Origin: Planctomycetota bacterium
Lineage (GTDB): Bacteria; Planctomycetota; UBA1135; UBA2386
Length of the DNA: 24,948 nucleotides
Direction: 5' to 3'
Assembly (NCBI GenBank): GCA_016793305.1
Contig: JAEUHU010000009.1
Span: forward strand, 1-24,948
Shown here: piece after piece, positions 9,417 through 21,312 of the stretch
How the letters are laid out: the number at the start of each line of letters is the position of its first letter
Position numbering within the stretch: position 1 is the stretch's first letter
Notes under the pieces: model-generated
The model's input: the letters and a program-made list of their open reading frames with translations, nothing else
Database searches by the model: none
What the model was told of the DNA's origin: nothing
Program-made: the position numbers and the translations under genes

Positions 9417-10909
9417 GCGCTGCATCGACGGCCGAACTGCGCCTCACGGCAGTGATCGACTTCGCGCACGCGCTGGTCACCGCCACCCTGAACCGCCAGC
9501 TGCACGACCGGGACGGCCGCTTCGTCCACGACGCGCTGCAGGACCTCGTGCAGGCACTGCGGCGCTGCGAGCAGCTCGGCGTCGAGATGCCGCTCTCGCT
9601 GCAGTGCAGCGACGACCGGCTGTTCCACGACGGGGCGGCACTGCCCGGACCGAGCCTGCAGGCTCGCTCGCTGCTGCGGCGCTGCGCCGAACGCGAACTG
9701 GCCGCGCTGACCTTCGCCCCCGGGCTCACCGTCGACGAGGCGAACCGGCTGCTCGACCTCCTGCTGCTGCCCCAGAACCGCACCGCCCTGCAACGCACGT
9801 CGCGCGACATGGCCTTGTCGGCGCTCGGCATCCGGCACGCGCGCGTGATGTTGCGCTCGCCCGGTGAGCCGGACGATCGCTACCGCGCACTCGCGAGCGA
9901 GGATCGGGCCCTGCACGCCTACCAGGATCTCGCCGAGTGCCTGCAGCAGAACCACGCGCTCGCCTCGCGCGACCAGGAACTCGCCGTCGAGGCGACCGCT
10001 GGGCTCGTCGAGCGCACGGTCGCCGACGTCGACGAGCCGAGCATGCTGCTGGCGCTGGCGACGCAGGACGACGTCGACCGCTTCACCGTCGGCCACTCGG
10101 TGCGCGTCGCCCTGCTCGCCCTGCAGGTGGCGCGCGGCCTCGGCGCCAGCCGCGAACAGCTGGTGCAGGTCGGTTCGGCGGCGCTGCTGCACGACATCGG
10201 CAAGTCGAAGGTGCCGCAGGAGGTGCTGTTCAAGCAGGGTCGCCTCAGCGAGGAGGAATGGCAGTGGATGGCGCAGCACCCGCGGCTCGGCGCCCAACTG
10301 CTGCTCGAGCAGCACGAGACCGTCGACCCGCGCGCGATCGGGGCGGCGTTCTGCCACCACATGCGCCCGGACGGCGGCGGCTACCCGCAGCCGGCCCTGC
10401 CGCTGCTGCCGTGCGGCTCGAGCCGACTGGTGCGCGTCTGCGACGTGTTCGAGGCGCTGACCTCGGTGCGCCCCTACAAGCGGGCGCTGACGCCGATCGA
10501 GGCCTACGCGGTGATGTTCCGCAACGAGTGCGACTTCGACCCGGTGTGGCTGCGCCGCTTCGTGCACACGCTCGGCCTGTTCCCGAACGGTTCGCGGGTC
10601 ACGCTGCGCGACGGGTCGCTGGCGATGGTCACGGACCAGGGCGAACGACCGGACCGCCCGTTCGTGCAGCTGCTGACCGCTGCCGCAGGTGCCCGCCTGG
10701 TCGCCGACCAGCCGACACGGCTGCAGGTCGGAGGCTCGCACGACGGCAGGCCGGTCGCGATCGCGTCGGTGGCGATGCACGAACGGCTGGTCGCCGTGCC
10801 GGACCTGGACCCGGCCGATCCGGAGATCCTGACCCAGACCGCGGCCCACGCCTGCCTGTCGACCCGTCTCGCCGCGGGAGCGGTGGCACCGGAGCGACCC
10901 GTCCGCTGA
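9413..10909 (+). CDS. HD-GYP domain protein (probable cyclic-di-GMP phosphodiesterase)
   Basis: 498 aa. The N-terminal half (1-210) is a helical region of unknown family without membrane segments. The HD-GYP domain covers about 215-380. His228 lies in FTVGHSVRVALLAL, and HD260-261 in ALLHDIGKSKVP. QHPRLGAQLL (289-298), His315-His316 and DGGGYP (320-325) follow. VCDVFEALTSVRPYKRALTPIEA is the usual trailing block. HD-GYP domains hydrolyse cyclic-di-GMP and sometimes cGAMP at a two- or three-iron site; all metal-ligand positions I can place are present. The usual H-H-E is H-H-M here, a change in a residue that supports some metal sites. The C-terminal 120 residues are beta-rich and unassigned. 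The start ATG overlaps the upstream stop; the longer open frame running back to 7238 is not coding there. Confidence 0.92.
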   Translation: MSAASTAELRLTAVIDFAHALVTATLNRQLHDRDGRFVHDALQDLVQALRRCEQLGVEMPLSLQCSDDRLFHDGAALPGPSLQARSLLRRCAERELAALTFAPGLTVDEANRLLDLLLLPQNRTALQRTSRDMALSALGIRHARVMLRSPGEPDDRYRALASEDRALHAYQDLAECLQQNHALASRDQELAVEATAGLVERTVADVDEPSMLLALATQDDVDRFTVGHSVRVALLALQVARGLGASREQLVQVGSAALLHDIGKSKVPQEVLFKQGRLSEEEWQWMAQHPRLGAQLLLEQHETVDPRAIGAAFCHHMRPDGGGYPQPALPLLPCGSSRLVRVCDVFEALTSVRPYKRALTPIEAYAVMFRNECDFDPVWLRRFVHTLGLFPNGSRVTLRDGSLAMVTDQGERPDRPFVQLLTAAAGARLVADQPTRLQVGGSHDGRPVAIASVAMHERLVAVPDLDPADPEILTQTAAHACLSTRLAAGAVAPERPVR

Positions 10910-12850: not shown

Positions 12851-13594
12851 TCACGCCTCGACCGGGTCGATGCCGAGCCGATAGCCGACCCCGGGTTCGG
12901 TCAGCAGCCAGCGCGGCACGGCCGGCTCGGGCTCGAGCTTGTGGCGCAGCTGCCCCATGAACACGCGGAGGTAGGCGAGATCCCCGTCGTGGTTGGGTCC
13001 CCACACCTCGCGCAGCAGTGCCGTGTGCGTCAGCACCCGGCCCGCGTGGCGCGCCAGCGTCGCCAGCAGCCGGAACTCGGTCGGCGTCAACTTCACGTCG
13101 GCGCCGCCCTCGCCGAGCAGATGGCATTGGCGGCGGGCCAGGTCGAGGCGGAAGCCACGACCGTCGGAGCCTCGACACGTCACCACCGGCACCTCGTCGA
13201 CCTCGCTGCGCGCCCGGCGCCGCAACACCACGCGCAAGCGCGCCAGCAGCTCGGGCACGCCGAACGGCTTGGTGAGGAAGTCGTCGGCCCCGGCGTCGAG
13301 GGCCGCCACCTTCACCGACTCCTGGTCGCGCGCCGACAACACGACGATCGGCAGCTGCGACCAGCCGCGGATCTCGTGGACCAGCTCGATGCCGTCGCCG
13401 TCCGGCAGCCCGAGGTCGAGCAGCACGACGTCCGGTGGGCGCGCCGTGACCTGGAGCCGGGCCGCCTGCAGCGTGTCCGCTTCGTCGACCCGGTAGCCAC
13501 GAGCCGCCAGCGCCGTGCGCAGGAAGCGGCGGATCGGCGCCTCGTCCTCGACGATCAAGGCGTTCGCGGTGCACACCGCTGTGGGTTCGTTCAT
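12851..13594 (-). CDS. kdpE: KdpE-like response regulator of the OmpR/PhoB family (leftward pair)
   Basis: 247 aa. The receiver domain covers 10-125: ALIVEDEAPIRRFLRTAL with acidic residues Glu16-Asp17, phosphoacceptor Asp60 (VVLLDLGLPDGDGIELV), VVLSARDQESVKVAALDAGADDFLTKPFG with Lys109. The winged-helix domain (about 145-245) has VKLTPTEFRLLATLARHAGRVLTHTALLREVWGP and PRWLLTEPGVGYRL. The A-L-D-A-G-A-D-D-[FY]-L-T-K-P-F-G and LGLPDGDG blocks are very close to KdpE, the regulator of the Kdp potassium pump. A GGAGG lies 6 nt before the ATG, inside the end of kdpD, and the ATG overlaps the kinase stop by 4 bp. No kdpFABC genes are here, so the target may be the porin gene upstream or genes elsewhere. 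Confidence 0.9.
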   Translation of the reverse strand: MNEPTAVCTANALIVEDEAPIRRFLRTALAARGYRVDEADTLQAARLQVTARPPDVVLLDLGLPDGDGIELVHEIRGWSQLPIVVLSARDQESVKVAALDAGADDFLTKPFGVPELLARLRVVLRRRARSEVDEVPVVTCRGSDGRGFRLDLARRQCHLLGEGGADVKLTPTEFRLLATLARHAGRVLTHTALLREVWGPNHDGDLAYLRVFMGQLRHKLEPEPAVPRWLLTEPGVGYRLGIDPVEA

Positions 13595-15111
13595 GGCTCG
13601 CCTCCGGAAGGATCGGCCTCGTGGCCGGCGACGTCGCCCGGCTGCACCGGCACTGGCAGCTCCAGCCGGAACGTCGCCCCTGGCTGCTCGACGTCGTGCA
13701 GTCGCAGCGAGCCCCCGTGCGCGCGCGCGATCGCGGCCGCGATCGCAAGGCCGAGGCCGAGGCCGCTGCTGCGTGGGCCGCGCTCGAAGCGCTGGAACAA
13801 GCGGGCGCGCAGCTCGGGCGGCACACCAGGACCGTCGTCGTGCACGTCCACGCCGACCCGGCCGTCGGCGACGAACGGCCGCACCTCGACGTGGGCCTCC
13901 TGCGGGGCGTGACGGACCGCGTTGTCGAGCAGCAGGAACACGCACTGTTCGAGCAGCACCGGATCGGCCTGCAGCAACGGCAGCGCCGCCGGCACCACCT
14001 GGATGCGACCACTGCGGGACTGCGTGCGAGCGCGGCGCACCGCCGCCCCGACGATCTCCTCGAGGCTCGTCCACTCGGCGCGCAGCACCACGTCGCCGGC
14101 GTCGAGCCGCGTCGCGAACAGTAGGTTGGCGATCAGCTCGTTGAGTCGCTGCGACTCCTGGACGATGCCGGCGAGCAGGGCGGTGCGCTCGGCGGGCGGC
14201 AGGTCTGCCCCGTCGTCGAGCAGGGAACTGGCGGCACCGGTGATCGACGCCAGCGGCGTGCGCAGGTCGTGCGACACCGACGCCAGCAGGGTGCTGCGCA
14301 GCCGTTCCTTCGCCGCCGCCTCGTGCAGCTGGCGTTCGGCCGTCTGGGCGCGCAGCCGCTCGATCGCCGTGGCGGCCTGCGTCAGGGCCGTCGACAGGCG
14401 GCCCGCGAGCGCCGTCGACGCGTCGGCCGCGTCGCTCCGCCAGGCCAACAACCCTACCGAGACCTCGGCCAGGCCGATCGGAGCACTGGCGACCGGGCCA
14501 GGAGTCCCTGGAACCGTGCCACCGTCCATGCGCGCGATCAACGCGTGTCGACCGGCCTCACCGAGCCAGTCGTCGCCGACGACCACCGCCGCAGACGGAC
14601 GGCTCGACGACCCCTGGCCTGCGAACAGCAGCACCAGCGGCGCATCGACGACACCGACCAGGTGGTCGAGCAGCGCTTGCGCCACCGCGCGTTCGTCGTC
14701 GGCAACCGCGAGAGCCCGGGCGAGCTGGTTCAAGCTGGCGAGCTCCTCGGCTCTCGAGTGGGCCGCAGCAGAACTGGCGCGCAGACGCTCCACCAACGTG
14801 GACATCAGCAGGCCCAGCACCAGCATCACGACGAACGCGGCCAGCGCGTTGCGATCGGCGATCGTCAGGGACCAGCGCGGCTCCGTGAACAACACGTTGA
14901 AGGCCAAGGACGACACGAGCACCGCTGCGGTCGCGAGAATCCTGCGGCACCGCAAGGCGACGACGACGATGCCCAGCACCAGCACCATCGCTTCGGTCGC
15001 GAGCGAGCCCGGGGCGTGGGTCAGCGCCGCGAGGCCGACCGCTCCGGCAACGATCGCCAGCATCTCGGCGACCTCGCGGCGGATCGGACGATGAGGGACG
15101 GTGCGATTCAC
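13591..15111 (-). CDS. kdpD: KdpD-like sensor histidine kinase lacking the N-terminal KdpD/USP domains (leftward pair)
   Basis: 506 aa from the GTG at 15111; an ATG at 15063 with a GAGG about 10 nt before it gives 490 aa and is a real alternative. DUF4118 occupies about 17-107 with four membrane helices (near 18-35, 40-53, 58-75 and 88-106), including FNVLFTEPRWSLTIADRNAL. A GAF-like region (about 130-250) follows. The kinase then has His281 in SVSHDLRTPLASITGA, LLLDNAVRHAP (N box), DDGPGVPPE (G1) and GLGLGLAIAAAIARAHGG (G2). Classic KdpD has about 400 more residues in front, a KdpD sensor domain and a universal-stress domain that bind potassium, nucleotide or c-di-AMP; these are missing. Input must therefore come through the membrane/GAF part or a separate protein. 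It is coupled to kdpE by a 4-bp overlap. Confidence 0.88.
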   Translation of the reverse strand: MNRTVPHRPIRREVAEMLAIVAGAVGLAALTHAPGSLATEAMVLVLGIVVVALRCRRILATAAVLVSSLAFNVLFTEPRWSLTIADRNALAAFVVMLVLGLLMSTLVERLRASSAAAHSRAEELASLNQLARALAVADDERAVAQALLDHLVGVVDAPLVLLFAGQGSSSRPSAAVVVGDDWLGEAGRHALIARMDGGTVPGTPGPVASAPIGLAEVSVGLLAWRSDAADASTALAGRLSTALTQAATAIERLRAQTAERQLHEAAAKERLRSTLLASVSHDLRTPLASITGAASSLLDDGADLPPAERTALLAGIVQESQRLNELIANLLFATRLDAGDVVLRAEWTSLEEIVGAAVRRARTQSRSGRIQVVPAALPLLQADPVLLEQCVFLLLDNAVRHAPQEAHVEVRPFVADGRVGVDVHDDGPGVPPELRARLFQRFERGPRSSGLGLGLAIAAAIARAHGGSLRLHDVEQPGATFRLELPVPVQPGDVAGHEADPSGGEP

Positions 15112-15143
15112 GCAGGCCAGGACAGCATACGGAGCCTTCTGGC

Positions 15144-16508
15144 TCAGAAGCGCACCGTGACGTCGAAGCCGAGCACCCAAAGCCCCTGGTCCTCGCCGAG
15201 GTCGAAGGCGCGGTTGTCCCAGTTGCGGTAGTAGACCGCCTCCGGCCGCACCTGCAGCGACGGGGTCGCGTTCCAGGTGAGGCCGACACCGTGGCTCGTG
15301 TAGCTGCCGGCGAAGCCGCTGCGCGCGCCGTCGGTGTCGCGCCACCACTCGTTGCGCAGCGTGACGAACGTCTGCGGCGACAGGCGCAGCGACGTGTAGT
15401 TCAGCACGCCGCCGGTCCACGTCGTGCCCGGGATGTCGGCACCGAGCCCACCGCCGCCGCCGAACGAGCGCACCGGGCCGAGGCTCGGCCGGCCGCCGAC
15501 CACCGCGTCGCGTTGCCACATCACGTAGCCCTCGGTCTTGGTGTGGAGGTCGGCGTCGACCCGGTGCTGCCAAGTGCCGACGAGGTAGTTGAAGTTGTCG
15601 GCGCCGGACGGCTGGCCGTCCTGTTCGAAGCGCTGGAAGCGTGCGTCGTTGATCGCGTTCAACACCACGTACAGCGAGTCGTCGTTGTCGGCCGCGACCC
15701 ACCGCACGCCGAGCATGCCGGTCAGCACCGCGCCTTCGAACCACGGCGCGCTGTCGGTGCCGGCGTGCAGCCCCGCCTGCACGCTCCACTGTCGATCCAG
15801 CATCGTCGTCAGCATGACGCCGGTCTGCGTGTAGGTGTCGTGCGTGAACAGCAGCGAATGCGTCGCCATCGCGTTGTCCGGCGCGAACTGCGTCTCGATG
15901 TCGGGGCACGCGACCCAGCGGCCGACGCGCAGGATCGAGCCGTCGGCCAGGCCCGGCACGTAGAGGTCGAGGTACAGCTCCGTCGCGTCGAAGCCGTACA
16001 GCTCGTTGCGTTCGAGCAACTGCTCGCTGAACCAGCCGCCGGCCGTCATCCAGCGGTAGTTCGTGCCGTAGAGCAGCGTGGCGCGGAAGCCCCAGTCGAC
16101 GTGGTCCTGCTGCACGCTGTCGACCTCGCGCTCGAACCGCACCACGCCCTGTTCGAGCTGCACGCTGTTCGGCACCAGCCAATAAGACGACGGCAGGTTC
16201 GAGTCGCGGGCGCTGCTCAGGTTCGCCGACGTGGTCGCCCAGCCGTAGGCGCGCAGCCGCGGCGCCAGCGCCGGCACGAGCTCGTGCAGCAGGGCGGTCG
16301 TGGGCCACGTCGTCGTCGACGGCGGCACGCCGACCAGGGGATAGCCCTGCCACTCGGCGGACGGGAACGGCGGCGAGGCCAGCGGTGCCGGCAGGGCGCG
16401 GCGCGGCGGTTCGGCCTGCGGCGGTTCCTGGGCCAGCACTGCAGCCGGGCTCACGAGTGCTGCGACCGCGAGGAGCCGGCGGCGTCCGGCTCGTCCGGCG
16501 CCGGCCAC
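15144..16508 (-). CDS. Outer-membrane beta-barrel porin, OmpL-like (bbp2 family)
   Basis: 454 aa from the GTG at 16508. This start gives a clean signal peptide (MAGAGRAGRRR, then LLAVAALVSPAAVLA, cut before QEPPQ); ATG at 16598 would add an Arg-rich stretch. A Pro-rich linker (27-55) is followed by a barrel of alternating polar and aromatic residues. It contains YLDLYVPGLADGSILRVGR, PDIETQFAPDN, HSLLFTHDTYTQTGVM, DRQWSVQAGLHAGTDSAPW and LGVRWVAADNDDSLYVVLNAINDARF. These are hallmarks of putative beta-barrel porin-2 proteins. The last residue is Phe (GFDVTVRF), the outer-membrane assembly signal. Porins of this type are often found beside kdp genes, and this one lies 32 bp before a kdpD-like gene. 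It probably lets small solutes or ions through the outer membrane; the solute is unknown. Its start overlaps a small ORF. Confidence 0.85.
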   Translation of the reverse strand: MAGAGRAGRRRLLAVAALVSPAAVLAQEPPQAEPPRRALPAPLASPPFPSAEWQGYPLVGVPPSTTTWPTTALLHELVPALAPRLRAYGWATTSANLSSARDSNLPSSYWLVPNSVQLEQGVVRFEREVDSVQQDHVDWGFRATLLYGTNYRWMTAGGWFSEQLLERNELYGFDATELYLDLYVPGLADGSILRVGRWVACPDIETQFAPDNAMATHSLLFTHDTYTQTGVMLTTMLDRQWSVQAGLHAGTDSAPWFEGAVLTGMLGVRWVAADNDDSLYVVLNAINDARFQRFEQDGQPSGADNFNYLVGTWQHRVDADLHTKTEGYVMWQRDAVVGGRPSLGPVRSFGGGGGLGADIPGTTWTGGVLNYTSLRLSPQTFVTLRNEWWRDTDGARSGFAGSYTSHGVGLTWNATPSLQVRPEAVYYRNWDNRAFDLGEDQGLWVLGFDVTVRF

Positions 16509-16588
16509 AGCGTCGCGAACCAGCGAACGAACACGAAGGGCAGCAGGAAGCAGCTGGACACGGCGAGGACGGCGATCGGATCGGCCAT
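16451..16588 (-). CDS. Small single-span membrane peptide, possible KdpF-like remnant, overlapping the porin start
   Basis: 45 aa. MADPIAVLAVSSCFLLPFVF (residues 1-20) plus VRWFATLWP gives one membrane helix followed by a short basic/aromatic edge, then a polar tail (APDEPDAAGSSRSQHS). KdpF, the first gene of kdp operons, is a single-helix peptide of about 30 residues with an N-out helix and no strong motif. The position before a porin-kdpD-kdpE run is where kdpF would be if kdpABC had been lost. The ORF overlaps the porin signal-peptide region by 58 bp in another frame. An in-frame ATG six codons earlier exists (16606). No good ribosome binding site lies near 16588. Because the ORF is short and overlapped, it could also be a chance frame. 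Confidence 0.4.
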   Translation of the reverse strand: MADPIAVLAVSSCFLLPFVFVRWFATLWPAPDEPDAAGSSRSQHS

Positions 16589-16663
16589 GGAGCACCATGG
16601 CCGCATCCTGGCCCCCCCCTGGGCGAGGGCTCGATGGGAGCCGCGTCAGGAACGGCGGTGCAC

Positions 16664-16684
16664 GCATAAGGACTGCATAAGGAC
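16664..16684. repeat. Tandem 10-bp direct repeat with 11-bp period, candidate KdpE-type operator
   Basis: GCATAAGGAC occurs at 16664-16673 and again, without a mismatch, at 16675-16684, with a single T between. The unit is AT-richer than its surroundings. OmpR/PhoB-family response regulators bind head-to-tail on direct repeats spaced about one helical turn (10-11 bp), and two such regulators are encoded by the flanking operons. The repeat lies about 76 bp before the small ORF start at 16588 and about 200 bp before the rightward kinase, so control of the leftward unit is more likely. The factor itself is inferred. Confidence 0.5.
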
Positions 16685-16722
16685 GCCCTCGGCGCCCGCA
16701 GGGCCAGGGCCCGTCGCAGAGC

Positions 16723-16767
16723 TCAGAAGCGTGTCGAGAAGCCGAAGCCGTACTGGATTCGATGCGG
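16723..16767 (-). pseudogene. Possible remnant of a beta-barrel protein C terminus
   Basis: On the minus strand a 14-codon frame reads PHRIQYGFGFSTRF followed by TGA. Alternating aromatic residues and a terminal Phe are the C-terminal signature of outer-membrane barrels. The DNA around the stop (CGCTTCTGAGC) is identical to that at the end of the intact porin at 15144, where the frame also reads GGCTTC shortly before. A TGA lies directly upstream, so the rest of the frame is lost. It may be the scar of a deleted or duplicated porin gene; with so few residues, chance is a real alternative. Confidence 0.3.
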
Positions 16768-16885
16768 TCAAGACAGGAAGGCGCCCGCCTTGATGCGCCC
16801 TTGAGGTCACGGCCCCCACCGCCACCCCCGCACCTCGCCAGCGAGCCGTTGCCCCCGTCGCGGCCACCGCCGATGCTGCACATCC

Positions 16886-18451
16886 GTGACGACGACCATG
16901 CCCGCGGCCGGCAACGGCCGCTCGAAGCGCTCGAGCTCGCCGCTGCACCGGCTGCTGAACGTCGGCCCGGAACCGCGCCACCCGTACGTCTACGCGCTGG
17001 TCGTCGTCGCGATCGCCACCCTGATCGCGTTCGCGCTGTACCCGTTCGAGGACCTCGCCAACCTGATCATGGTCTACCTGCTGGCGACGGTGATCGCCGC
17101 GGTGCGCCTCGGCCGCGGACCGTCGATCACCACCACCATCGTCGGCACCGCGGCGTTCGTGTACTTCTTCGTGCCGAACCGCTACTCGTTCGTGATGGCG
17201 GACCTGACCTACCTGCAGACCTTCACCATCATGATCGTCGTCGGCATCATCGTGTCGACGCTGACGTCGCAGCTGCGCACCGAGCTGCTGGCCACCGAGT
17301 CGCGCGAACGGCGCAGCCGGGCGCTCTACGAGCTGTCGCGCGCGCTGGCCGGCGCCGAGACCGAGGCCGACGTCGAACGGCTGGTGCCGCACCACGTCGA
17401 ACGCGCGTTCCGGACCCCCGGGACGCTGCTGTCGGGCGCCCACGGCGACACCGCCGCGGCTCGGCCGATCCCCGCTTCCTGGTCGGTGGCCGACGCCGAG
17501 GCGCTCACGGTCTGCTCCAGCACCGGCACTCCGCAGCGCACCGGCGCCCTGCTGCTGCAGCCGCTGGTCGTCACCGGCGAGGTGGTCGGCGTGCTCGCGC
17601 TCGACGTGGGCAACACACCGCTGACCGCCAGCGACGACGTGCAGCTGGTCGAGTCGTTCGCCAACAACATCGCCGTGGCCCTGCACCGCGTCGTCGTCGA
17701 CGCGCGCGCCGAGCACGCCCACCAGCGGGCCGAGGACGAACGCCTGCGCAACGTCATGCTGAGCTCGGTCAGCCACGACCTGCGCACGCCGCTCGCGGCG
17801 ATCACCGGAGCCGTCACCACGATGCTCGAGAACGGACCGCAGCTCGACGACGACAGCCGCCACGAACTGCTCGGCGCGATCCGCGACGACGCCGAAGCGC
17901 TCGAGCGCCACGTGCGCAACCTGCTCGACCTGACGCGACTCGAGTCGGGCGGCCTCGAGGCGCGGCGCGACTGGTGCTCGCTCGAGGAAGTGGTCGGCTG
18001 CGCCCTGGAACGCGTCGACAGCCTGCTGACCGACCGGCCGATCGACCTCGACGTGCCGAGCGACCTGCCGTGGCCGCAGGTCGACGGAGCCCTGGTCGAA
18101 CAACTGCTGGTCAACCTGATCGAGAACGCGGTGCGCTACACCCCGACCGGCAGTCCGATCACGATCGCCGCCCGCTGCACGCCGACCAGCGTGCGCCTGT
18201 CCGTCGCCGACCGAGGCCCGGGCATCCCGGCGGAACGGCGCGAACAGGTGTTCACCAAGTTCTATCGCGGCGAAGGCCACCGCCACGCCGCCGGCGCCGG
18301 GCTCGGGCTCGCGATCTGCCGCGCGATCGCGCACCTGCACGGCGGGGACGTGCACGTCGAGGAGCGCGAAGGCGGTGGCGCGGTGTTCGTCGCCAACCTT
18401 CCCGCAGCCTTGCAACCAGCTCCGCCCGCGCGCGACGGCGACCTCGCATGA
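16886..18451 (+). CDS. kdpD: KdpD-like sensor histidine kinase lacking the N-terminal KdpD/USP domains (rightward pair)
   Basis: 521 aa from GTG at 16886; ATG at 16898 (517 aa) is equally possible and neither has a clear ribosome binding site. A basic N terminus (NGRSKRSSSPLHRLLN) is followed by DUF4118 with four helices (about 34-52, 58-73, 82-96 and 109-126) and the typical loop FVYFFVPNRYSFVMADLTYL. A GAF domain fills about 145-270 (PLVVTGEVVGVLALDVG). The kinase has His297 in SVSHDLRTPLAAITGAVTTML, LLVNLIENAVRYTP, DRGPGIPAERREQVFTKFYRG, and GAGLGLAICRAIAHLHGG. The H-to-ATPase spacing and DLRTPLAAITG block are KdpD-type. As in the other copy, the potassium/nucleotide-sensing N-terminal domains are absent. 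It is coupled to the next gene by a 4-bp ATGA overlap. Confidence 0.9.
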   Translation: MTTTMPAAGNGRSKRSSSPLHRLLNVGPEPRHPYVYALVVVAIATLIAFALYPFEDLANLIMVYLLATVIAAVRLGRGPSITTTIVGTAAFVYFFVPNRYSFVMADLTYLQTFTIMIVVGIIVSTLTSQLRTELLATESRERRSRALYELSRALAGAETEADVERLVPHHVERAFRTPGTLLSGAHGDTAAARPIPASWSVADAEALTVCSSTGTPQRTGALLLQPLVVTGEVVGVLALDVGNTPLTASDDVQLVESFANNIAVALHRVVVDARAEHAHQRAEDERLRNVMLSSVSHDLRTPLAAITGAVTTMLENGPQLDDDSRHELLGAIRDDAEALERHVRNLLDLTRLESGGLEARRDWCSLEEVVGCALERVDSLLTDRPIDLDVPSDLPWPQVDGALVEQLLVNLIENAVRYTPTGSPITIAARCTPTSVRLSVADRGPGIPAERREQVFTKFYRGEGHRHAAGAGLGLAICRAIAHLHGGDVHVEEREGGGAVFVANLPAALQPAPPARDGDLA

Positions 18452-19164
18452 ACGACCCCTCCACCGCCACCGGCCCGCAGATCCTGGTCGTCGAGGACGA
18501 AGAGGCGATGCGCCGTTTCCTGCGCGTGACGCTGCGCGTGAACAACTACCGCATCACCGAGGCGACCACCGCGCAGGAGGCGCTGGCACTCGCCCAGGAA
18601 CGGCGCCCAGACGTCGTGCTGCTGGACCTCGGCCTGCCCGACGGCGACGGCCTGCAGGTCGTGGTCGGCCTGCGCACCTGGTTCGCCGGTCCGATCCTGG
18701 TCGTCTCGGCGCGCCACCAGGAGAGCGACAAGGTCCAAGCGCTCGACGCGGGGGCCGACGACTACCTCACCAAGCCGTTCGGCACCAGCGAACTGCTGGC
18801 CCGGTTGCGCGTCGCCCAGCGCCACTTCGCGCGCACCGCCGCCGGCACCAGCGAGAAGGGCTTGTTCGTGGCCGGCGCGCTGCGGGTCGACCGCGACCGC
18901 CACGAGGTCACCGTGCGCGGCGAGGTCGTGAAGCTGACGCCGATCGAGTACCGGCTGCTGCTGAGCCTCGTGCGCAACGCCGGCCGGGTGGTGACCCGCC
19001 GCCAGCTGCTGCGCGAGGTCTGGGGCGAACAGCACCTCGACGAGGCCCACTACGTGCGGGTCTACATGTCGGCCCTGCGGCGCAAGATCGAGGAGGACCC
19101 GGCGCGGCCGAAGCTGCTGCGCACGGAACAGAACGTCGGCTACCGCCTGTTCGTCGAACCCTGA
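18448..19164 (+). CDS. kdpE: KdpE-like response regulator of the OmpR/PhoB family (rightward pair)
   Basis: 238 aa. Receiver domain 11-125: ILVVEDEEAMRRFLRVTLRVNNYRITEA with Glu16-Asp17, phosphoacceptor Asp60 in VVLLDLGLPDGDGLQVV, VVSARHQESDKVQALDAGADDYLTKPFG with Lys109. The winged-helix output domain (about 140-235) contains VKLTPIEYRLLLSLVRNAGRVVTRRQLLREVWG, HYVRVYMSALRRKIEEDP and RTEQNVGYRLFVEP. It is clearly a paralogue of the protein at 12851-13594, sharing receiver landmarks at the same residue numbers. Start and upstream stop overlap (18448-18451). A hairpin follows the stop. Its regulon is unknown: the adjoining ClC gene and the repeat at 16664 are the nearest candidates, by position only. 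Confidence 0.92.
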   Translation: MNDPSTATGPQILVVEDEEAMRRFLRVTLRVNNYRITEATTAQEALALAQERRPDVVLLDLGLPDGDGLQVVVGLRTWFAGPILVVSARHQESDKVQALDAGADDYLTKPFGTSELLARLRVAQRHFARTAAGTSEKGLFVAGALRVDRDRHEVTVRGEVVKLTPIEYRLLLSLVRNAGRVVTRRQLLREVWGEQHLDEAHYVRVYMSALRRKIEEDPARPKLLRTEQNVGYRLFVEP

Positions 19165-19248: not shown

Positions 19249-21312
19249 ATGCCGAAATCGAAGGGCCTGCCGCTGCGCGCGTTCGCGATCTTCCTGCTCG
19301 CTGCAGGGATCGGTGTCGCCGGCGGGCTGCTCGGCAGCCTGTTCCAGCAGAGCCTCGACGGCATGCAGTCGCTGCTGACCGGACGACTGCTCGACGTCGA
19401 TCCGGTGCGACCCGGGCAGCAGACCGAGTCGCTGTCCGAGGCCGTGCGTCGCGATCTCGCGTGGTGGCAGACGCTGCTGGTGCCGACCGCCGGCGGTGCG
19501 TTCGCCGGCCTGCTGCTGCTGCTCTTGCGCGGCAAGCGGCCGCCGTTCGGCCTCGCCGATCTCGTGGTGATGGTGCAGCTGCGCAAGGGTGCGCTGCGGT
19601 TCCGCGACAACGTGGTGCAGCTGCTGTCGTCGGCCAGCACGATCGGCAGCGGTGGCTCGATCGGCCGCGAGGGTGCGAACTCGCAGCTCGCGGCGCTGGT
19701 CGCGGCGCTGGTGGCGCGTTGGACCAAGGTCGGCTCCCGGTCGCGGGCGGTGCTGATCGGCTGCGGCGTCGCCGCCGGCATGGCGACCTCCTACAACGCC
19801 CCGATCGCCGCGGCGATCTTCGTGATGGAGGTCGTGCTCGGCAACTTCGCGATGGACGTGTTCGCGCCGGTGGTCGTGGCCTCGGTGCTCGCCACCATCG
19901 TGCGCAAGCAGTGGCTCGGCGAGGTCGCGGTCTACCAGAGCGACGCCAACGCCGTCGCCAGCCTGTCGCCGCAGCTGATCCTCGCCGCCGTGGTGCTCGG
20001 CGTGCTGTGCGGCGTCGGCGGCATCTTCTTCCGCGCCGGCCTCGACCGCGGCCGCAGCCTGTTCCAGGCGCTGCGCCTGCCGCTGCCGCTCGGCATGGCG
20101 CTCGGTGGGCTCGTGGTCGGCGCGATCGGCATCTTCATGCCGGAGGCGTGGGGCAACGGCATCGACGTGATCCGCGAGTGCGCCACCGGGACCACCAGCC
20201 TCGGCGTCGTGCTGACGCTGTTCCTGTGGAAGCAGGTGGCGACGATCGCCACCGTCGGCAGCGGCGGGCTCGGCGGCATCTTCACGCCGAACCTGGTCAT
20301 CGGGGCTGCGTTCGGGGCCATGTTCGCGCAGGTGCTCGGCCAGCTGACGCCGTTGGCGCCGGGCCACACCGCGACGTTCGTGTTCGTCGGCATGGCCGGG
20401 CTCACCGCCGCGACGATGCACGCGCCGGTGACCGCGGTGGTGCTGGTGTTCGAGTTGACCGGCCACTACGAGCTGACGCTGCCGGTGATGCTGTGCAGCA
20501 TCGTCGGCAGCATCACCGCGGCGCTGATCGACCAGGACAGCTACTACACGGCGGCGATCAAGCGGAAGGGCGAACAGCTGCCGGCCGGGGTCGAGGACCT
20601 GGCGATCCGCTCGACCTACGTGCGCGACGTGCTGCGCCAGGACACGCGCACCGTGCGCGACACCGCCGGCTTCGCCGAGGTGATGGGCCTGCTGGGCACG
20701 TTCCGCGGCGACACGATCTACGTGGTCGACGGCCAGGGCGGGCTGACCGGCCGCATCGAGCTGCAGGACGTGAAGAACTTCCTCAACGACCCGAGCCTGA
20801 CCTCGGTGGTGATCGCCGCCGACCTGACGCGGCCGGTGGTCACCACCACCGCCGACCAGTCGATCGCCACCGTGCTGCCGCTGTTCGACGATCCCGAGCT
20901 GCGTGAGGTCGCGGTGGTCGCCGGCCAGGCGGGTGCTGGCCAAACGGGACGTCTGCTCGGCCGGGTGCGCCACCAGGACGTGTTGACGACCCTCGGCGAC
21001 GAGGTGCTCGGCCAGCAACGCCGTTCGGGCCGCATCGCCGTCGGCCCCGAAGAACTCGAACTGCCGGCCGACCACGAACTGCGCACCGTGCCGCTGCCCG
21101 ACACCTGGGCCGGCCTCGCCGTCGACGCGCTGCCGCCGGCGAGCGTGCGCGATCTGGTGGTCGTGATGGCGCTGCGACCCGGTCCGCGCGGCGACGACGT
21201 GCTGGCGGCGACCCCCGAACTGGTGCTGCAGCCCGGCTGGCGGGTGGTCGTGCTCGGCAAGCGCGAAGCGATCCGCAAGCTGCGCGACGACGCGGACGGC
21301 GACGACGAGTAG
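19249..21312 (+). CDS. ClC-family chloride channel or chloride/proton antiporter with cytosolic CBS and TrkA-C-like regions
   Basis: 687 aa from ATG at 19249; a TTG four codons earlier is less likely. The membrane part covers about 8-440. GSGGSIGREGANSQL holds the gating glutamate (Glu141) in the G-R-E-G signature. The family normally has Pro after this G; here it is Ala. GSGGLGGIFTPNLVIGAAFG is the G-x-F-x-P motif and GMAGLTAATMHAPVTAVVLVFELTGHYEL the late helix block. Two CBS-like segments follow (about 460-570: VVDGQGGLTGRIELQDVK; VVTTTADQSIATVLPLFDD). A TrkA-C-like end comes last (about 610-687: LPPASVRDLVVVMALRPG, LQPGWRVVVLGKREAIRKLR). Such tails bind nucleotides and gate transport in relatives. 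It moves chloride or another anion across the inner membrane. It lies 84 bp after kdpE with a hairpin between them. Confidence 0.92.
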   Translation: MPKSKGLPLRAFAIFLLAAGIGVAGGLLGSLFQQSLDGMQSLLTGRLLDVDPVRPGQQTESLSEAVRRDLAWWQTLLVPTAGGAFAGLLLLLLRGKRPPFGLADLVVMVQLRKGALRFRDNVVQLLSSASTIGSGGSIGREGANSQLAALVAALVARWTKVGSRSRAVLIGCGVAAGMATSYNAPIAAAIFVMEVVLGNFAMDVFAPVVVASVLATIVRKQWLGEVAVYQSDANAVASLSPQLILAAVVLGVLCGVGGIFFRAGLDRGRSLFQALRLPLPLGMALGGLVVGAIGIFMPEAWGNGIDVIRECATGTTSLGVVLTLFLWKQVATIATVGSGGLGGIFTPNLVIGAAFGAMFAQVLGQLTPLAPGHTATFVFVGMAGLTAATMHAPVTAVVLVFELTGHYELTLPVMLCSIVGSITAALIDQDSYYTAAIKRKGEQLPAGVEDLAIRSTYVRDVLRQDTRTVRDTAGFAEVMGLLGTFRGDTIYVVDGQGGLTGRIELQDVKNFLNDPSLTSVVIAADLTRPVVTTTADQSIATVLPLFDDPELREVAVVAGQAGAGQTGRLLGRVRHQDVLTTLGDEVLGQQRRSGRIAVGPEELELPADHELRTVPLPDTWAGLAVDALPPASVRDLVVVMALRPGPRGDDVLAATPELVLQPGWRVVVLGKREAIRKLRDDADGDDE

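Follow-up and report, generated by a model that had tools for sequence, protein, structure and literature searches.

What does a KdpDE-type two-component system regulate when the genes of the KdpFABC potassium pump are not beside it? This question is raised by contig JAEUHU010000009.1 of a Planctomycetota bacterium (assembly GCA_016793305.1), which was analysed as a whole (24,948 bp, 72% GC) and is called the window here. It carries two short DUF4118 sensor kinases, HK1 and HK2, each joined to a KdpE-type response regulator, RR1 and RR2, respectively. The HK1-RR1 unit includes a BBP2-family porin and the HK2-RR2 unit is followed by a ClC anion channel gene. The first-pass annotation had proposed a duplicated kdp regulatory module redirected to envelope or anion permeability. 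Our results suggest that the window probably holds a kdp-derived operon which now switches a porin, beside an independent and probably ClC-linked system. Of the earlier proposal, the kdp origin of HK1/RR1 is supported, with a KdpE-type operator kept before the porin operon, and the duplication is not. The orthology, the shared genomic slot, the operator, the domain losses and the co-occurrence on which this reading is built are all read from sequence.

Both kinases have DUF4118, HisKA and HATPase_c domains, and the Pfam search (E up to 0.1) found neither PF02702 (KdpD_N) nor PF00582 (USP) in either, which agrees with the earlier statement that the KdpD/USP N-terminal region is missing. The GAF domain assigned to both did not hold equally, as HK1 had no Pfam GAF match at E<0.1 and HK2 had a weak one (PF01590 barely above the cut-off, two others below). 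The start of HK1 lies 32 bp past the porin stop and falls in the USP-membrane linker of full-length relatives in the alignment, and a 920-codon open frame reaching upstream of HK1 gave no PF02702 or PF00582 match in the same search. The HK1 frame is intact and keeps the usual kinase motifs. A 4-bp ATGA overlap joins kinase to regulator in both pairs, as had been described, and the BBP2 porin and the ClC were confirmed by Pfam (E-values of 8.1e-26 and 3.2e-82). The two units do diverge from a shared spacer, with the head of the HK1 operon and HK2 facing it, although the order from the spacer is small open reading frame (ORF), porin, HK1 and RR1, so that the porin and the small ORF separate HK1 from the spacer. 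The tblastn search with KdpA, KdpB, KdpC and KdpD N-half queries from L001, a kdp locus of a relative, found no match in the 24.9-kb contig, in line with the earlier remark that the window has no pump genes. RR1 keeps the receiver in an alignment by eye to E. coli KdpE (4kny), its nearest PDB sequence. Both regulators have residues matching R193, R200 and T215 of KdpE (by eye, alignments to 4kny and 6lgq), which are named as DNA contacts in the consulted text of PMC3264566. Neither kinase reached the KdpD equivalog cut-off (NF007793, 1123 bits; HK1 221, HK2 353), which the full-length KdpD of L001 (756) did not reach either. The KdpE equivalog NF007820 (cut-off 325 bits) was also not reached by RR1 (266) or RR2 (262) and was still the best family for both.

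The kinase tree comprised 75 hand-chosen rows, namely the two window kinases, 17 of the 120 listed HK1 matches, 27 of the 120 listed HK2 matches and 29 loci. HK1 was placed in a 12-row set with the KdpD proteins of L127 and L128 (SH-aLRT 98) and in a 17-row set with that of L001 (100), while HK2 was in a clade of 28 rows, none of them a full-length KdpD (support 100). The regulator tree (26 rows) grouped RR1 with the kdp-linked L127, L128 and L187 and the pump-less L185 (98/95), and RR2 with five regulators from genomes where KdpA was not found (100/100). The HK1 homologue search left proteins above 1.75 times the length of its 494-aa query unscored, so full-length KdpDs of about 900 aa could not appear in it; the HK2 search, with a size limit of about 912 aa, was nearly free of such length bias, and the first 65 of its 120 listed proteins lacked PF02702. 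Judged by sequence comparison, HK1/RR1 is kdp-derived and orthologous to the kdp-linked KdpD/KdpE of related Planctomycetota, and HK2/RR2 is a separate, all-short DUF4118 kinase family and an independent system. A recent kdp duplication, with the two pairs as sister copies of one module, would fit their equal domain order, short kinases, adjacency and KdpE-type regulators. However, HK1 and HK2 are 34% and RR1 and RR2 51% identical, HK2-RR2 adjoins ClC in genomes where KdpA was not found, and the two systems belong to different supported clades and are thus not sister copies. Sister duplication was ruled out by both trees, and a recent duplication in any form is scarcely credible to us.

The comparative analysis of 21 loci (L001 plus 20 regions surrounding the best ClC matches from 151 genomes of the order) located both systems in the slot between the PIG-L/hydrolase and ClC-TPR genes. 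The window ClC and PIG-L genes match L001 and L049, and the TPR gene matches L001. This slot carries kdp in four of the 21 loci, on the same strand as ClC in L001 and on the opposite strand, divergent from ClC, in L126, L127 and L128; the L126 contig ends inside kdpD, with the remainder on contig L187. Pump genes and the KdpD N-half occur together in all four. HK2-RR2 occupies the slot in another four loci (L118, L119, L120 and L123), where RR2 always precedes ClC at 71-91 bp from the ClC match and KdpA was not found; HK2 and RR2 are separated by 6 kb in L119. Neither system was found in ten loci, and three stretches were too short (L102, L105 and L133). The slot of the window has both, with RR1-HK1-porin-small ORF oriented as in L126-L128 plus HK2-RR2 ahead of ClC; of the relatives with a system in the slot, four carry HK2-RR2 alone and four kdp alone. 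The order in L001 is porin-kdpF-kdpB-kdpA-kdpC-KdpD_N-USP-HK-kdpE (kdpF named by eye), and its 901-aa KdpD contains KdpD_N, USP, DUF4118, GAF, HisKA and HATPase_c. The parts absent from the window, kdpF-B-A-C and the KdpD N-half, lie next to one another there, so a single deletion could account for both losses.

The spacer reads GCATAAGGACTGCATAAGGAC on the plus strand at 16664-16684, which gives CTTATGC-N4-CTTATGC on the operon strand. The E. coli box TTTATAC-N4-TTTACAC ends 81 bp before kdpF, and the half-sites TTTATA and TTTACA bind KdpE according to the text available from PMC3264566. The window operator was the sole match of at least 12/14 in 24.9 kb, and none appeared in 60 first-order Markov simulations. 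The tandem was present in six of 22 loci scanned, with 0-4 mismatches of 18 (the window, L185, L001, L126, L127 and L128), and in all six it ends 76-82 bp ahead of the operon's first ORF; among the other 16, L134 had one 4-mismatch match outside such a promoter and 15 had none. Words similar to a possible third half-site were seen by eye at the same offset in most related loci. In L186 (G031, kdp-bearing), the seventh locus of the same regulator clade, the wider consensus is matched at 13/14 by a box 76 bp before an ATG; the outer-membrane gene may itself start further on, 132 bp from the box. Within 2.2 kb upstream of kdp, YTTAYRC-N4-YTTAYRC (13-14/14) was found in 29 of the 53 usable loci out of 79, L001 itself among them, versus 0.011 per 2.2 kb in the remaining locus sequence, and 28 of the 29 boxes are on the operon strand. 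Pseudomonas contributed 16 of the boxed and 17 of the scanned loci, leaving 13 boxed among 36 non-Pseudomonas loci. The strict pattern gave one match each in G001, G018, G068 and G092 among 12 genomes, all at the kdp/porin operon, and none in six of the 12, including G056. No ion-transport gene of a wider KdpE regulon was recognised by eye near the two other strict matches (G031:C108 and G013:C8).

The HK2 upstream regions contain a different tandem, TTGAYGC-N4-TTGAYGC, in four of seven cases, which is only suggestive of an RR2 operator before HK2. Cross-regulation, in which RR1 and RR2 share the spacer and porin and ClC respond jointly as one envelope-ion switch, is favoured by this weak related tandem standing in one divergent spacer with the RR1 operator and by the three DNA-contact residues kept in both regulators. 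The RR2 box is weak, however, and relatives have HK2-RR2 alone or kdp alone in the slot, and we consider a joint switch quite improbable.

A porin operon of this kind was also found in G092, whose contig C76 (L185) carries the small ORF (37%), porin (77%), short HK1 and RR1 (68%) in the same order as the window. Its HK1 (P0008, 381 aa) has neither GAF nor PF02702 listed, KdpA and PF02702 were not found in the G092 genome, and the single strict operator match in 7.5 Mb is at the porin operon. G092 also has HK2 and RR2-ClC (L119). The source contigs of porin P0122 (91%) and kinase P0004 are both 5237 long and those of P0123 and P0016 both 12290, which suggests one contig for each pair and hence linkage of porin and short HK1; the size recorded for P0008 equals that of the real G092 contig, 74067. 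Two candidates in G092 were rejected: a free-standing KdpD N-terminal gene, for which the PF02702 search found none, and TrkH (L185 12410-14173) as operator target, which is unlikely because it is upstream of the operator on the same strand. The HK1-RR1-porin unit could instead be a decaying remnant, a functionless pseudo-operon being lost, given the missing pump and input domains and the unrecognisable GAF of HK1. But the frames, kinase motifs and operator are intact, the short form occurs at 70-74% identity in P0002-P0004, and the module is present in G092 and probably in two other contigs, so that decay is very unlikely. A split or relocated Kdp is another explanation, with kdpFABC and a free KdpD/USP chain elsewhere, still under HK1/RR1, and the porin as an added target. 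Section 8 of PMC11018627 describes separate ASK and TM/GAF/HK chains among pump-bearing species, and the source genome beyond the 24,948-bp contig could carry the pump. We nevertheless regard it as unlikely, though with some weight left to it, since in G092, with the same operon, KdpA and KdpD_N were not found and the only strict operator match is at the porin operon, and since pump and KdpD N-half are together in all four slot relatives with kdp.

The N-terminal half of KdpD has long been described as an input. In our genome set, KdpA was detected in 18 of 151 genomes, and all 18 also had PF02702 above the cut-off and DUF4118. Strong DUF4118 without KdpA was found in eight genomes (G002, G057, G074, G077, G083, G092, G095 and G107), two of which (G057 and G095) had PF02702. 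The difference of 18/18 versus 2/8 is significant (Fisher p=1.2e-4) in a test which ignores relatedness, on genomes whose completeness is not given; the table left out G109, at the DUF4118 cut-off (28.5 bits with neighbours), and G066, G080 and G096, below it. With regard to KdpD_N loss as a general rule, the 79 loci comprised 61 with full KdpD and kdp, two with short KdpD and kdp, eight full without kdp and eight short without kdp, and the genome table is preferred because many of these contigs end nearby. The N-domain of E. coli KdpD is, in the sections seen of PMC11018627, a serine kinase phosphorylating S162 of KdpB; such a domain has no substrate once the pump is gone, so its co-loss would make sense. 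N-truncated E. coli KdpD responds to K+ limitation and shows no repression at high K+, as stated in the part of PMC2714519 consulted.

Structure modelling and fold search were done for the porin only (predicted local distance difference test, pLDDT, 79; predicted template-modelling score, pTM, 0.82). Normalised to the length of the model, template-modelling scores of about 0.5 were obtained against general porins, among them the 16-stranded DcaP, PorB and OmpF, so the output is likely to be the permeability of the outer membrane, controlled by K+ or osmotic conditions. Porin matches were present in three of 151 genomes of the order, the close ones being G092 (76-77%) and G015 (64%), and in 18 of 343 genomes of the phylum, the close ones being G015 and G003 (47%). 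In L014 a 14/14 box stands between a window-type porin and kdpA. That the window-type porin was ancestrally a kdp gene in this order was unsupported, with few close matches and L001 and L014 porins differing in subfamily or orientation. The L185 counterpart of the small ORF (37% identity) scored 30 bits, partly from the overlap with the porin start, and a similar pattern heads L126 and L127 (by eye). The features of the window are listed in Table 1.

Table 1. Features of the two KdpDE-type units in the window and of the spacer between them
Feature	Position	Strand	Remarks
RR1, KdpE-type response regulator, 247 aa	12851-13594	-	Pfam Response_reg + Trans_reg_C
HK1, KdpD-derived sensor kinase without KdpD_N or USP, 506 aa	13591-15111	-	GTG start
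BBP2-family outer-membrane porin	15144-16508	-	GTG start 16508 inferred; Pfam, predicted barrel
Small hydrophobic ORF, 45 aa	16451-16588	-	heads HK1 operon, overlaps porin start
Possible third half-site CTGACGC	16643-16649	-	32 bp after first half-site start; by eye
KdpE-type operator CTTATGC-N4-CTTATGC	16664-16681	-	14/14 to YTTAYRC-N4-YTTAYRC; 75-76 bp before small ORF
Candidate RR2 box TTGATGC-N4-TTGAGGT	16790-16807	+	before HK2; weak
HK2, short DUF4118 sensor kinase of separate family, 521 aa	16886-18451	+	GTG start
RR2, KdpE-type response regulator, 238 aa	18448-19164	+	
ClC anion channel/transporter, CBS + weak TrkA_C domains	19249-21312	+	same strand after RR2

Several further observations were made around these genes. 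The HK1 relative P0005 (709 aa) has USP and not PF02702, resembling a half-way stage of N-domain loss, and the short kinases P0012, P0013 and P0015 form a group that branches beside L001's full-length KdpD, as its sister, in the tree, perhaps by independent loss of the N-half. The kdp order is B-A-C with a kdpF-like ORF before kdpB (L001 3551-7870; L126-L128; L186), versus A-B-C in E. coli, and L127 has an extra small hydrophobic ORF (10175-10261) between kdpB and kdpA. A weak 12/14 box lies 65 bp before the kdp-unlinked porin (64%) of G015 (L198 10341-10358), with one other 12/14 match in the 19-kb stretch. In the window ClC (19249-21312), FVMEVV is aligned to bacterial FIIEEM and the external GREG glutamate is kept; the valine stands at the position of the internal proton glutamate (E203), as in channel-type ClC proteins. 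TerC-like, DabA and Proton_antipo_M (DabB-like) genes lie between HK2 and RR2 of G092 (L119 7151-12172). An ORF of about 410-550 codons for a polytopic membrane protein is located between PIG-L and kdp/HK2/ClC or just beside them in L001, L049, L119, L120, L122, L123 and L127, and tblastn with the L122 copy found no match to it in the window.

The single deletion, the signal, the porin as physiological output and the control of ClC are inferences. A deletion running from the outer-membrane gene to mid-kdpD would have removed kdpF-B-A-C together with the serine-kinase/USP half and spared the membrane histidine kinase, KdpE and its operator. The membrane part of HK1 would probably sense low K+ or an osmotic cue and phosphorylate RR1, and phosphorylated RR1 would bind the tandem operator and turn on its own operon. 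The porin is the only obvious structural product of that operon, and the output would shift from an inner-membrane pump to outer-membrane permeability. HK2-RR2 probably controls ClC, its sole linked candidate target in the window. The more specific proposal of a pump-less Kdp regulon, in which KdpFABC and the serine-kinase/USP half were lost in one contiguous deletion, the operator was kept and a K+/osmo-responsive porin operon is the sole target, is held tentatively, at somewhat below an even chance. A number of points weigh against these proposals. The window is a single contig of 24,948 bp, and a kdp operon could lie elsewhere in the source genome. BLAST gave no significant match between the window porin and that of L001, and the outer-membrane gene of L127 and L128 is Phenol_MetA_deg and not of the window porin type; a model with one deletion must therefore add either an exchange of porins or an ancestor that has not been sampled. 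The window-type porin of L014 is divergent from kdpA and outside the kdp operon, and that of G015 is unlinked to kdp. As for the operator, 24 of 53 kdp loci are without a 13/14 box, the L186 box was missed by the tandem scan and reached 13/14 only by the wider consensus, and the L126 (G056) box departs at 4/18 positions. Two of the six strict matches are elsewhere (G031 and G013), and a reversed control pattern gave six matches in the 12 genomes, which puts the background of strict matches at about 0.5 for each genome. The RR2 box is present in just four of seven HK2 upstream regions, and the HK2-type kinase and regulator of G077 and G107 sit away from ClC.

The kdp-derived operon resembles E. 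coli KdpDE/KdpFABC in DUF4118, HisKA/HATPase_c, the KdpE-type regulator with matching DNA-contact residues and the tandem operator of 11-bp period, equally far from the first gene, but the window contig is without the KdpD_N serine kinase, USP and pump genes and the operon product is a porin. It shares with the kdp loci L001, L126, L127 and L128 the slot, kinase core, regulator, operator and spacing, and with L126 and L127 a small ORF at the head, whereas these loci have kdpF-B-A-C and a KdpD that retains the N-half, and the outer-membrane protein of L001, L127 and L128 is different. A kinase chain without the N-half is also known from split KdpD (a KdpD/Usp chain and a TM/GAF/HK chain); in the consulted sections of PMC11018627, the census covers pump-annotated species with the ASK chain elsewhere, unlike G092, where neither was found. 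In Francisella SchuS4, as far as the excerpt of PMC6584805 goes, the pump is likewise partly lost (kdpA pseudogene) and the sensor gene remains, but with a full-length KdpD and a kdpE pseudogene. Among the open-access papers listed for the terms searched in one library, we recognised no report of KdpDE with both pump and N-domain lost, nor of a porin operon with a KdpE operator.

The finding may serve as a natural experiment on KdpD. If acting on KdpB is the main role of the N-half, its loss along with the pump would be expected, with kinase, regulator and operator retained, and the window contig and G092 look like that predicted pattern. The analysis also provides a usable consensus of the KdpE operator, YTTAYRC-N4-YTTAYRC. 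A conserved natural short form of KdpD would show how an N-truncated kinase is tolerated, and a kdp-derived operon switching a porin predicts an outer-membrane output for KdpE.

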